Shown here piece by piece: positions 28,083 to 30,678 of a stretch of 55,442 nt of DNA (within the stretch, counting starts at the first letter, position 1; every line of letters begins with the position of its first letter). The stretch spans positions 1 through 55,442 of the forward strand of contig NZ_QWET01000026.1 of assembly GCF_003573545.1 (NCBI RefSeq), read 5' to 3'. Under the pieces are notes generated by a model. It did no database searches. It was given only the letters and a program-made list of their open reading frames with translations, and was not told where the DNA came from. Origin of the DNA: Mariniphaga sediminis. Its GTDB lineage: Bacteria > Bacteroidota > Bacteroidia > Bacteroidales > Prolixibacteraceae. A program made the translations under genes and the position numbers.

Positions 28083-28946
28083 ATGAGACAGTTTACAAAA
28101 TACCTTACAACCGGGAAAGAGGATGTTGACTGGGGCATATACCTTAATTCCGCCGGTTCGCAAACCATACCGCCACAAAGCGAATACCCGCCCAAATCGC
28201 ATCCAAGCGGCTACTATTTTACCTGGGAGCAGGGTCGCGAGTTGCAGGAGTATCAGCTCAACTTTATTACAGAGGGCGGCGGCGTGCTCGAAAACAAACA
28301 CGGCAGTTTCCCGGTCAAAGCCGGCAGTATCCTTGTTACGCTCCCCGGAGTATGGCACCGCTATAAGCCCCTCTACCAAACCGGTTGGACCGAAAACTAT
28401 ATTGGGTTTAGTGGTAAAGCCATTGATAAATTCATGCGGCACAAGCAGTTTAGTTCCAGACAACCGGTTATCTACGCAGGTGTAAGAGAAGAAATACTCG
28501 ACACTTATCTGAAAATTTTTGATTTGGTTGAAGAAGAGTCCCCCGGGTTTCAACACATTGCCTCAGGATTGGTTATCAAACTACTGGGATACCTGGTGGC
28601 TTTTGAAAAACAAAAGGAGTTTTCAGGGAAAAAAATTGCGGAAGTAATTGAAAAGGCACGGTTCCAGATGCGAAGTAATGTGGGCAAAAATTTCGATTTG
28701 GAAAAGTTTGCCGTAACACACAACATAGGATACTCCTGGTTTCGCCGGATGTTTAAAAATTACACCGGCCTTTCGCCCCGGCAGTATTGCCTTCAGCTAA
28801 AAATTATGCGGGCCAAAGAACTGCTGTTGAACACCGACCATTCCGTAAAAGAAATTAGCTACCAACTCGGATTTGAATCCATTCACTACTTCAGTCGTTT
28901 ATTTAAAAAGAAAACCGGAATGAGCCCCAGTGAATTCAGAAATTAA
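28083..28946 (+). CDS. AraC-family regulator of the rhamnose operon
   Basis: A 287-residue transcription factor with an N-terminal cupin sensor domain (about 1-150; VKAGSILVTLPGVWHRYKP) and a C-terminal double helix-turn-helix (about 190-287; NIGYSWFRRMFKNYTGLSPRQY and VKEISYQLGFESIHYFSRLFKKKTGMSPSEFR). The cupin probably binds L-rhamnose or a relative, by analogy with RhaR/RhaS. It is transcribed divergently from rhaT and followed by a strong terminator, so it is a single-gene unit. Confidence 0.88.
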   Translation: MRQFTKYLTTGKEDVDWGIYLNSAGSQTIPPQSEYPPKSHPSGYYFTWEQGRELQEYQLNFITEGGGVLENKHGSFPVKAGSILVTLPGVWHRYKPLYQTGWTENYIGFSGKAIDKFMRHKQFSSRQPVIYAGVREEILDTYLKIFDLVEEESPGFQHIASGLVIKLLGYLVAFEKQKEFSGKKIAEVIEKARFQMRSNVGKNFDLEKFAVTHNIGYSWFRRMFKNYTGLSPRQYCLQLKIMRAKELLLNTDHSVKEISYQLGFESIHYFSRLFKKKTGMSPSEFRN

Positions 28947-29110: not shown

Positions 29111-29310
29111 CAATAATCAATATCCAATACAAAATTTGGAAATTGAATGTTGGGTATTTTACATTGGGTATTTCCTAAAAGAAAACAAATTATCCATCCT
29201 CTCTTCATCCTCTTTGTGGTTATTTGTGGTTAACTTTTTTATTTAACCACAGAGAGCACAGAGAAGACACAGAGAACCGCAGAGTAGTTTTGCCAACCCA
29301 AATGTTTTTT
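29111..29310. repeat. CACAGAG-type dispersed repeat, copy 1
   Basis: This about 200-bp unit runs from CAATAATCAATATCCAATAC through CTCTTCATCCTCTTTGTGG to AACCGCAGAG and TTGCCAA, and is repeated at 29348-29549. Inside it GTGGTTAA (29226-29233) and TTAACCAC (29243-29250) form an 8-bp hairpin. A CACAGAG-rich segment follows (29249-29285). No open frame is conserved between copies. Confidence 0.8.
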
Positions 29311-29347
29311 CTGTATTGGAGATTTCTGAAAAGAAAAAGAAAATTTC

Positions 29348-29549
29348 CAATAATCAACAACTAATAGCCAATACCCAAAATTTGGAAATTGAGGGCTGGT
29401 TATTCTGCATTGGATATTTCTGAAAAGAAAAACAAACTTCCCATCCTCTCTTCATCCCCTTTGTGGTACATAATTAACTTTTTTATTTAACCACAGAGGG
29501 CGCAGAGAAGACACAGAGAACCGCAGAGGTTCTATTGCCAATCCAAAAA
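29348..29549. repeat. CACAGAG-type dispersed repeat, copy 2
   Basis: The second, diverged copy of the 29111-29310 unit keeps the same order of blocks: the AATTTGGAAATTGA block, ATTTCTGAAAAGAAAA, CCATCCTCTCTTCATCC, TTTTTTATTTAACCACAGAG and ACACAGAGAACCGCAGAG. The left arm of the internal hairpin is lost here (GTACATAATTAAC instead of GTGGTTAAC). Confidence 0.8.
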
Positions 29550-29605
29550 GTGTCCTTTCCTGAAATAACTTGACACAAATAGTGTTCTGCTTTAATACGG
29601 GGCGC

Positions 29606-29801
29606 CCTGTTGGTTTCTGACCCTTCCTGTTACACAATTACCTTTCCTGTAATGTTTTGGGCTCTTCCTGTTAAACAGGACAGGAAAAAAGTGAACAGGA
29701 TTCTGCAAAAATGGAACAGGGCGGCAAAGAATCCTACAGGAGAACAAAAAAGGCAACAGGAAGACAAAAAAGCTTACAGGAGAACCCAAAAATGCAGCAG
29801 G
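29606..29801. repeat. Inverted array of CCTGTT/AACAGG at 20-21 bp steps
   Basis: CCTGTT-type motifs start at 29606, 29626, 29646 (CCTGTA) and 29667. The reverse-complement type AACAGG/TACAGG starts at 29674, 29694, 29715, 29735, 29755, 29775 and 29796 (AGCAGG). Steps are 20 or 21 bp on each side of a perfect dyad TCCTGTT-A-AACAGGA centred on 29673. Spacers are mostly unrelated, except that right-hand units carry A-tracts at 29685, 29707, 29726, 29746, 29766 and 29788. It lies between two convergent genes. Confidence 0.85.
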
Positions 29802-29817: not shown

Positions 29818-30678
29818 TTATTCCACCACTTCCCAGCCGTAATCAATATACTCCCATTTGAAATCACCTTTATTTACCGTAACATGTATAAATCCTTCTT
29901 CCATTCCAGACTTTGCACCCTTCCACCAGTTGGCACAAACTGCACCTCCTGTAATATAATGGATATTGTTATAGAAAATATCTTCAAGGATATGAAGGTG
30001 ACCCTGTAATACACTTTTAACGTTATAATCTTCCAGAATCTTTCTAATTTTCGGTGCATTGGTAATCAATGAACTTCCTCTAATACTTAATAACGGTATA
30101 TGTGTACTAATCACGACCGGTTTCTCTTTACCGATTGCTGCCAATTCCTTTTCCAGCCATCTTACCTGTAAAGAATCAATATAACCATAATATTGCCGGT
30201 CGTTAGTGTAACCTATCCCATCCAGCGAAATAAAATGCCAGCCTTTATGTTCAAACGAACTGAACCTTTCTGCCAAACGGTTTTCAAACATCTTTTTCCC
30301 ATATTCCTGATGCGTTGAGTCGACTCCACTCTTTTCGTACAAACCAAAAATATCGTGATTGCCAATTGTATTATATACTGGCATTTTAAAATGAGCTGAC
30401 ATTTCCTCATACAGCTTATACAGACTATCACTTCTGGAATAAGCCTGCCCCAAAGCATCCATTATCAGATCTCCCCCTGTGATAACAAAATCAGGTTTTA
30501 ATTCATTCACTTTCTCAATTGCCTTCAGGAAACCTTCAGTTGCATTTTTTTCAGGTTGCAAATGAATGTCAGTCATAAACACAAATGAAAATGACTTATT
30601 CTTAGGAAACTTTGCTGCATCAACCTGACTAGAAAATACAAAAACACAAAAAAATAGTATCGTAATAATCTTTCTCAT
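29818..30678 (-). CDS. Exported calcineurin-like metallophosphoesterase
   Basis: A 286-residue protein with a Sec signal (residues 1-21, SSQVDAA) and the full set of metallophosphoesterase motifs: FMTDIHL, VITGGDLIMD, YNTIGNHD, VVISTHIPLL and VLQGHLH. It probably binds a dinuclear metal centre and hydrolyses a phosphate ester or diester in the periplasm. It follows the leftward polysaccharide locus but is separated from the amidohydrolase by 375 bp, so its membership is uncertain. Its stop codon lies 17 bp from the last motif of the inverted array. A second, unrelated-length phosphoesterase ends the other locus at 54086-55093. Confidence 0.88.
   Translation of the reverse strand: MRKIITILFFCVFVFSSQVDAAKFPKNKSFSFVFMTDIHLQPEKNATEGFLKAIEKVNELKPDFVITGGDLIMDALGQAYSRSDSLYKLYEEMSAHFKMPVYNTIGNHDIFGLYEKSGVDSTHQEYGKKMFENRLAERFSSFEHKGWHFISLDGIGYTNDRQYYGYIDSLQVRWLEKELAAIGKEKPVVISTHIPLLSIRGSSLITNAPKIRKILEDYNVKSVLQGHLHILEDIFYNNIHYITGGAVCANWWKGAKSGMEEGFIHVTVNKGDFKWEYIDYGWEVVE

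Follow-up and report, generated by a model that had tools for sequence, protein, structure and literature searches.

A two-turn phased motif array in Mariniphaga sediminis and its relation to genes for an uncharacterised helical protein

In ParR/parC centromeres and in iterons, a protein gene lies beside ~20-bp repeats that are spaced at two helical turns and carry a plasmid-specific motif. RAYT genes lie beside their own REP repeats, which are also dispersed without the gene, and gene and repeats coevolve (PMC2817692). TIGR-Tas systems combine a small helical-protein gene with an adjacent array of locus-specific, sometimes alternating repeats; the protein has a Nop domain, and the array, which works through RNA, is made of 36-nt units of edge and loop repeats with 9-nt variable spacers (PMC12045711). 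Among Bacteroidota, the BrickBuilt and MITE464/PgRS elements of Porphyromonas gingivalis are intergenic MITEs bounded by IS5-type terminal inverted repeats, within which units of 23 or 41 nt are repeated in tandem, head to tail (PMC4596501).

RAYT/REP is the nearest analogue of the system described here in behaviour (PMC2817692), yet its protein, type of repeat and layout are different. REPs are palindromes on both sides of the gene, whereas here a phased row of short sites lies mostly on one side; RAYTs carry Transposase_17 (PF01797), an HUH/Y1 domain, whereas no transposase family was found in the gene product by a Pfam scan of 58 members. Motifs differ from locus to locus and change in concert, presumably with the gene product as partner. 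Phased repeats and an adjacent gene also recall ParR/parC and iterons, with protein binding putative here; in contrast to those systems, our loci are on chromosomal contigs, show no fold match, have inverted arms in the window's clade and are patchily spread. Compared with TIGR-Tas, the units measure 20-21 bp, a Nop match is lacking, some arrays have no variable spacers and there is no common RNA fold; membership in TIGR-Tas was rejected, since neither a Nop domain nor a 36-nt unit was found. A CRISPR array was likewise rejected: the motifs are 5-8 bp long and the spacers are homologous between copies, not long repeats with unrelated spacers.

The array lies in a 55,442-nt stretch of Mariniphaga sediminis DNA (contig NZ_QWET01000026.1; the window, by which we mean the whole stretch), where the following features are needed:

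28083..28946, plus strand: left neighbour, an ORF that we take to encode an AraC-type regulator
29559..29575, plus strand: CCTGAAATAACTTGACA (CCTRAAATARCTTGACA-like), in the place expected for the gene and the remainder of arm A
29586..29672, minus strand: arm A, CCTGTT orientation, sites at 29606, 29626, 29646 and 29667 plus a decayed unit at 29586; steps 20, 20, 20, 21
29673..29673, no strand: dyad centre, CCTGTT-A-AACAGG, by direct reading
29674..29801, plus strand: arm B, seven RCAGG units, most with an A-tract, by reading and script
29818..30678, minus strand: right neighbour, an ORF presumably metallophosphoesterase-like, whose stop codon and the last unit are 17 bp apart

Direct reading and a script both recovered what the initial annotation had reported, four CCTGTT-type and seven ACAGG-type sites with all steps of 20 or 21 bp around a dyad at 29673. 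The four left-hand sites are 20, 20 and 21 bp apart, and the right-hand sites start at 29675, 29695, 29716, 29736, 29756, 29776 and 29797 (steps 20, 21, 20, 20, 20, 21), the last of them reading GCAGG. Two features absent from that list are an extra, off-phase ACAGG at 29680 and the decayed fifth left unit, TTCTGC at 29586. The array is indeed 3' of both neighbouring genes, and its phasing withstands shuffling: between 29590 and 29810, with any 5-mer, both arms and steps of 20 or 21 allowed, the best chain has 10 units, against a mean of 1.63 and a maximum of 4 in 2000 dinucleotide shuffles. Further arrays, whose absence had been named beforehand as counter-evidence, exist in the host genome. 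The pattern RCAGR-N14-16-RCAGR-N14-16-RCAGR has 54 matches there and its reversed control 2; on reading, most of the 54 fall in six dyad arrays, on contigs C1, C18, C19 (the window), C29, C56 and C69, and the rest are scattered singles. The A-tracts that had been pointed out are present in the units of the window's clade but are not common to all arrays.

The sequence CCTGAAATAACTTGACA at 29559 is a probable insertion-sequence end. Sequences like CCTGAAATAACTTGACA/CCTRAAATARCTTGACA lie near other arrays (L034 at 5162, L035 at 7317, L069 at 4082, L071 at 4833, L085 at 2355, L104 at 3995, L161 at 2111), and the arrays may be insertion hot spots; the tally of 11 rows represents nine places, since L095 duplicates L034 and L180 duplicates the window, and L177 is a loose match. 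Upstream, at 29130-29535, the window holds on reading two diverged copies of a CACAGAG repeat with steps of ~10-11 bp (one turn), preceded by an inverted TTTGTGGTTA arm; relatives of this repeat occur in G000 at C7, C12, C29, C56 and C69, those on C29 and C56 close to array copies.

The own-genome copies, four arrays of G002 (same genus) and one of G011 (another genus) show 69-94% identity over aligned parts. By reading, most steps in the own genus are 20 and 21 in turn, whereas those of the G016 arrays are 20. The dyad centre CCTGTTAAACAGGA is identical in L073 and L208, and some stretches of the window and C69 arrays are shared blocks. Across 34 pairs from 11 CAGG arrays the motif is better kept than the spacers (204/1444 versus 880/3446 mismatches), in a count that favours the motif side somewhat, as motif columns were picked by presence in either sequence. 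In the fuller copies L106, L107 and L101, arm A begins directly 3' of the cognate gene's stop codon and carries a GGGCGTCCTG..CAGGGCGCCC hairpin, which is retained in most of seven aligned copies and, placed directly after the stop codon, may be the terminator of the gene; the window's arm A is truncated.

Other array copies adjoin a gene, or its remnants, for an uncharacterised all-helical protein, and in several of them the 3' end of one gene family abuts arm A. The gene is intact in G002 (L074:4547-5290, 247 aa), broken in L034 and L036 by search, and broken in L037 and L208 by eye. Gene searches of the own genome match C1, C7, C16 and C29 and find no trace on C19, where the gene's place is taken by CCTGAAATAACTTGACA and CACAGAG-type repeats. 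The own genome, 99.67% complete in 70 contigs, yielded only fragments of a CAGG-type gene, at C1 and C29, and no intact one, so the gene-less copy in the window is possibly a relic.

The protein is all-helical in its AlphaFold model, with one 56-residue helix (pLDDT 89.9, pTM 0.68), and in the alignment the C-terminal helix is rich in K and R in some members. The gene is under purifying selection, with dN/dS of 0.065-0.16 in 16 chosen pairs. In Pfam, the type protein has two sub-cut-off matches at E<=1 and no family at cut-off, and the scan of 58 members at E<=0.01 found neither a transposase nor a Nop family. Sequence searches of the PDB gave no relative (best E 0.42), and solved folds gave no convincing match to the model (best E 0.21 in the PDB and 0.15 among viral models); none of the 50 Foldseek matches listed has a Nop-like title. 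Neither sequence nor fold searches recognised a transposase, nuclease or DNA-binding domain. The one named family with a weak similarity is NCBIfam NF052641, 'PQLLE family protein', which 43 of the 58 members match (best E 2.7e-8) at scores that are far below its 80-bit cut-off for both the type protein (30.8) and L107 (20.5).

A scan with one genome per species gave 179 relatives, the best 80 of which were retained. They come from Bacteroidota (Prolixibacteraceae, Aquimarina, Cytophagales and others) and from MAGs named KSB1, Aminicenantes, Neomarinimicrobiota, Gammaproteobacteria/Pseudomonadales and Rickettsiales, some of them possibly mis-binned. In the 450 bp 3' of the stop codons of these 80 genes, repeated 5-mers number 695 and 1406 at lags 20 and 21 and 866 and 1202 at lags 41 and 42; lags 22, 40 and 43 give 174-230, lags 14, 28 and 35 (multiples of 7) 142-190, and other lags 28-85. 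Upstream of the same genes the counts are 76 and 147 at lags 20 and 21 and 48 and 113 at lags 41 and 42, and gene bodies have 97 at lag 21 and 205 at lag 42. An array of ~20.8-bp pitch directly 3' of the stop codon beats all 200 dinucleotide shuffles in 83 of 95 loci, and an upstream one does so in 6 of 95. The 95 loci are the best 80 and 15 further copies from relatives, excluding L080 (a copy of L100), and about 93 of them are independent, because L082 and L110 are one locus and L172 and L174 are 99.7% identical. Twelve fail (L085, L097, L108, L131, L136, L138, L140, L143, L145, L147, L152 and L157), three of which (L108, L140 and L152) tie with the shuffle maximum.

In 80 arrays the median distance from the stop codon to the repeated part is 52 bp, and the repeats extend over ~230 bp. 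Their pitch, measured in 78 arrays with an estimator confined to 20-21.5 bp, is 20.76 +/- 0.24 bp, or 10.38 bp per turn, independent of A+T content (Spearman 0.09, p 0.41). In 11 of the 80 arrays there is a terminator-like hairpin with a perfect stem, located after the stop codon and ahead of the array or, in L107, L128 and L161, overlapping its called start. By eye, a GCCGGC-rich inverted repeat precedes the start codon in several genera (L087, L089, L092, L096); Rfam gave nothing at gathering in ten loci that include these four, and sub-threshold matches only in the window region.

Motifs differ by locus (GCAGGA, AACAGG, CCCGGGA, TACTACAGGG, TATCCG, GTAGGAA, GTTAATC, CCCACGGG), and related loci may share one. 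Two unit types alternate, on reading, in several arrays (L146, L129, L155, L179), and ACAGG and GCAGG are mixed in others (L104, C69). Within one clade the motif differs in concert. ACAGG occurs there in 8 of 8 units of L128, though only 5 of 8 in L125, and CCGGG in 8 units of L134, 7 of L135 and 6 of L153, the first unit being ACAGG in L135 and TCAGG in L153; the three cross pairs listed have ~79.5% DNA identity. In the last seven units, the A/G series at unit position 6 is GAGAAGA in both L128 and L135, and L134 agrees in six. L128 and L135 also have a homologous last unit (GGCGAG...) and agree in the spacers of the last two units, their spacers further in being only weakly alike. This common series and the homologous last unit make re-amplification of the units improbable, even though almost every unit has a different motif. 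With unit identity seemingly kept while the motif changed in nearly all units, a trans-acting reader is needed, and from the sequences this is most likely the product of the adjacent gene. A/G variants of CAGG match in both inverted arms (L101 and L106 versus L107), so the reader most likely sees duplex DNA. A family-wide unit consensus drawn up by eye, xxxGGRANGGGTNAAA, was weakened, as the purine-rich words are gene-sense in 46 and on the other strand in 30 of 80 arrays.

Near-identical genes occur in unrelated surroundings, as expected of MITE- or IS-like elements. Sixty pairs of loci have a gene identity of 78% or higher and flanks of no less than 1.4 kb on every side; 48 of them have no common same-side flanking ORF and 12 do (blastp E 1e-8). 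The clearer cases are L086/L088 (93%), L131/L140 (91%), L145/L160 (94%) and L100/L101/L117; the 48 pairs are not independent, as many involve one Aquimarina group and L139, L141, L142 and L150 lie in one broad region. Between L086 and L088 the main alignment reaches from -67 to +154 relative to the gene, and weaker matches lie beyond it. In G011, of another genus, the L086 element has 91% identity, and in G002, of the same genus, 87%, versus 68% and 72% for the window's AraC gene, the one gene that served as yardstick of core-gene divergence (63-75% DNA identity over longer matches in relatives). The Aquimarina loci L139, L141, L142 and L150 match over about -145 to +260; lying in one broad region, they may owe their borders to local rearrangement and not to movement, and we dropped L139, L141 and L142 as proof of sharp element ends. 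Presence is patchy: the gene occurs in 9 of 60 relatives, a figure that includes the own genome, and over the phylum in 1 of 247 genomes, which is again the own genome.

Gene-less derivatives accompany the complete copies. At G000:C21 a leader piece is joined to an array, and all that is left of the gene is its last 12 bp. Seven of eight gene-less Aquimarina arrays start where the gene-bearing ones start after the stop codon, L240 being the exception; L235-L239 stand at one orthologous place (flanks 86-97% identical) and L240-L242 elsewhere, and tblastn found no gene remnant at these arrays (best E 0.17). In the five orthologous ones the motif is kept only slightly better than the spacers (110/770 versus 274/1479 mismatches). 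Gene-less arrays may partly result from gene deletion, and several neighbours keep gene remnants. A 220-bp 5' leader is 91% identical in L091 and L100, Mariniphaga elements of one genome whose genes are 41% identical and whose arrays differ, as if parts had been exchanged, and leader parts are also common to L086 and L154, and to L088 with L100, L108 and L117. In G308, G306 and G309 the Aquimarina 5' leader stands alone, apart from the listed gene matches. The relatives and Aquimarina comparisons yielded no clean empty site, and no target-site duplication was recognised by eye. An origin from plasmids was dropped after a DNA search of plasmids with the window array and tblastn of L107 on 72,556 plasmid records found nothing, and one from phages after tblastn of L107 on phages found nothing and a viral-contig scan gave 78 pattern matches, none of them a relative.

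A second, far-diverged family shows the same two-turn arrangement on the other side of its gene. A search for NF052641 in 295 genomes of the class matched ten, one of them above cut-off; for that sole member, L243, the surrounding 500 bp are free of 21-bp arrays. A lag of 21 or 42 is the strongest one upstream in all 11 second-family loci counted (L244-L249, L252-L256), L251 being outside the count as it could not be framed. Both second-family proteins scanned have a C-terminal carboxypeptidase-regulatory-like domain. When eight of those genomes were searched with L248, each had at most ten matches, a part of which covered nothing but the C-terminal domain. Thirty loci were fetched and ten with C-terminal matches only excluded; several of the remaining 20 are identical to places among the earlier loci. 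A 21-bp array immediately upstream exceeds all 200 shuffles in 16 of these 20, and one locus has its array downstream, shared with a neighbour gene; L267, L276 (frame wrongly called) and L282 fail, as does L273 upstream. Profile comparison of the two families gave a probability of 54% (E 1.3e-4) with one profile (A4) of only three sequences, so homology is likely, not secure, and the common two-turn array is a stronger link between the families than that comparison. Upstream of L249, a row of 7-bp ACAGCCA tandem repeats lies beside the 21-bp array.

We consider it somewhat probable that the array in the window derives from an element made of a gene and an array, of which it is the array module without the gene, with binding by a reader and mobility as the presumed properties of the element. 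A complete element would measure ~1.0-1.2 kb and consist of a short 5' leader, a gene for an all-helical protein of ~230-250 aa, and an array directly after the stop codon, with short motifs every 20-21 bp and, in the window's clade, two inverted arms. The protein would bind its own array as double-stranded DNA, touching the same face of the helix once every two turns, and lineage-specific motifs would prevent cross-talk between paralogues in one genome. Such binding would move, copy or maintain the element. Near-identical genes in unrelated surroundings, together with gene-less derivatives, suggest that the element is mobile and favour mobility over partition or regulation. A mobile-element end thus comes nearest among the options of the initial annotation, and no result here speaks for the nucleoid, partition or termination protein that it also named. 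The upstream array of the second family is left unexplained by a single end-of-element model.

The array might instead be transcribed and act as RNA, as a guide-RNA array of the TIGR-Tas kind or as a protein-bound RNA, which we regard as quite unlikely. It adjoins a small helical-protein gene, has a motif per locus and in some cases alternates two unit types, much as TIGR arrays do (PMC12045711), and several arrays fold better than shuffles (z -2.18 for the window, -2.94 for L128, -2.77 for L155 and -2.05 for L146). Others fold no better or worse (L118 +2.01, L159 +2.06, L179 +1.07, the arms of L107 +0.90 and L106 +1.08), however, and although 7 of 37 pairs in the consensus fold of the motif-difference group still pair with both sides changed, its covariation term is unfavourable (+5.92) and many pairs break in the two ACAGG sequences. 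The units of L118 and L179 are near identical, which would leave hardly any variable spacers to guide with, and the lack of a Nop match in Pfam, the Rfam results and the terminator-like hairpins ahead of 11 of 80 arrays tell against RNA as well. Plain minisatellite expansion by slippage, with the gene matching by descent only, would suit the near-identical units of L118 and L179 and the shared blocks of the window and C69, but we hold it to be highly improbable: motifs are better kept than spacers in CAGG arrays, the two-turn step recurs with unrelated motifs across phyla, and a motif that differs in nearly all units while unit order is kept is hard to reconcile with slippage. The preference for repeated protein contacts over a minisatellite or an RNA hairpin, voiced before these comparisons, gains from the concerted motif difference with unit order retained, from the lack of a common RNA fold, and from the recurrence of related arrays in relatives.

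By analogy with ParR and iterons, the arrays might also be cis sites of a chromosomal DNA-architecture or partition-type system, in which a protein wraps or clusters the array and the spread is incidental. The two-turn pitch, the alternating 20/21 steps, the gene beside the array, the per-locus motif and the retention of gene-less arrays at one place in five Aquimarina genomes would all fit such a system, but patchy presence, several copies per genome, the lack of a fold match and the absence of L107 from the plasmid records searched by tblastn make it unlikely. A role in autoregulation of the adjacent gene, or in blocking transcription of that gene or its neighbours, is very unlikely. The second-family array does lie directly upstream of its gene, in promoter position, and the first-family array lies in 3' space; the latter, however, follows the stop codon, sometimes beyond a terminator-like hairpin, and gene-less copies and spread would go unexplained. 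The convergent setting, thought meaningful in the initial annotation, is not preferred either: across 93 gene-bearing loci the next ORF beyond the array points back in 45 and away in 38, while the other 10 have no called ORF there.

Taking the gene-plus-array element as the favoured reading, we give an even chance to a broader proposal, that these loci represent an undescribed class in which helical proteins of at least two far-diverged families, in several phyla, each read their own phased duplex-DNA motifs, motif and protein diversifying together. Such elements would probably be selfish and mobile, with a novel, non-transposase way of movement that leaves gene-less arrays behind. If this is true, it adds a protein-DNA array partnership named in none of the libraries searched, present in Bacteroidota as well as in several further phyla represented by MAGs, and provides dozens of natural protein/motif pairs from which the recognition rule of a new DNA-reading protein could be worked out. 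It would also account for a group of intergenic repeats that have been puzzling, and might bring to light a new route by which small elements spread. The system has no match in Pfam, the PDB or Rfam, and no description of it was found in the open-access literature as judged by titles and the beginnings of abstracts, with most subscription papers outside that scope.

Other periodic repeats were seen in related genomes. The 21-bp arrays GCAGGGTTTNAAAAACATCGG of G033 (L076-L079) were rejected as members and kept outside all counts, since their arm order is opposite and the gene family was not found there; in L078 two arms point inward, the reverse of the window. G001, G003, G006 and G010 contain 7-bp GGGCAGA/GAGCAGA repeats that look intergenic and form another purine-rich periodic class.
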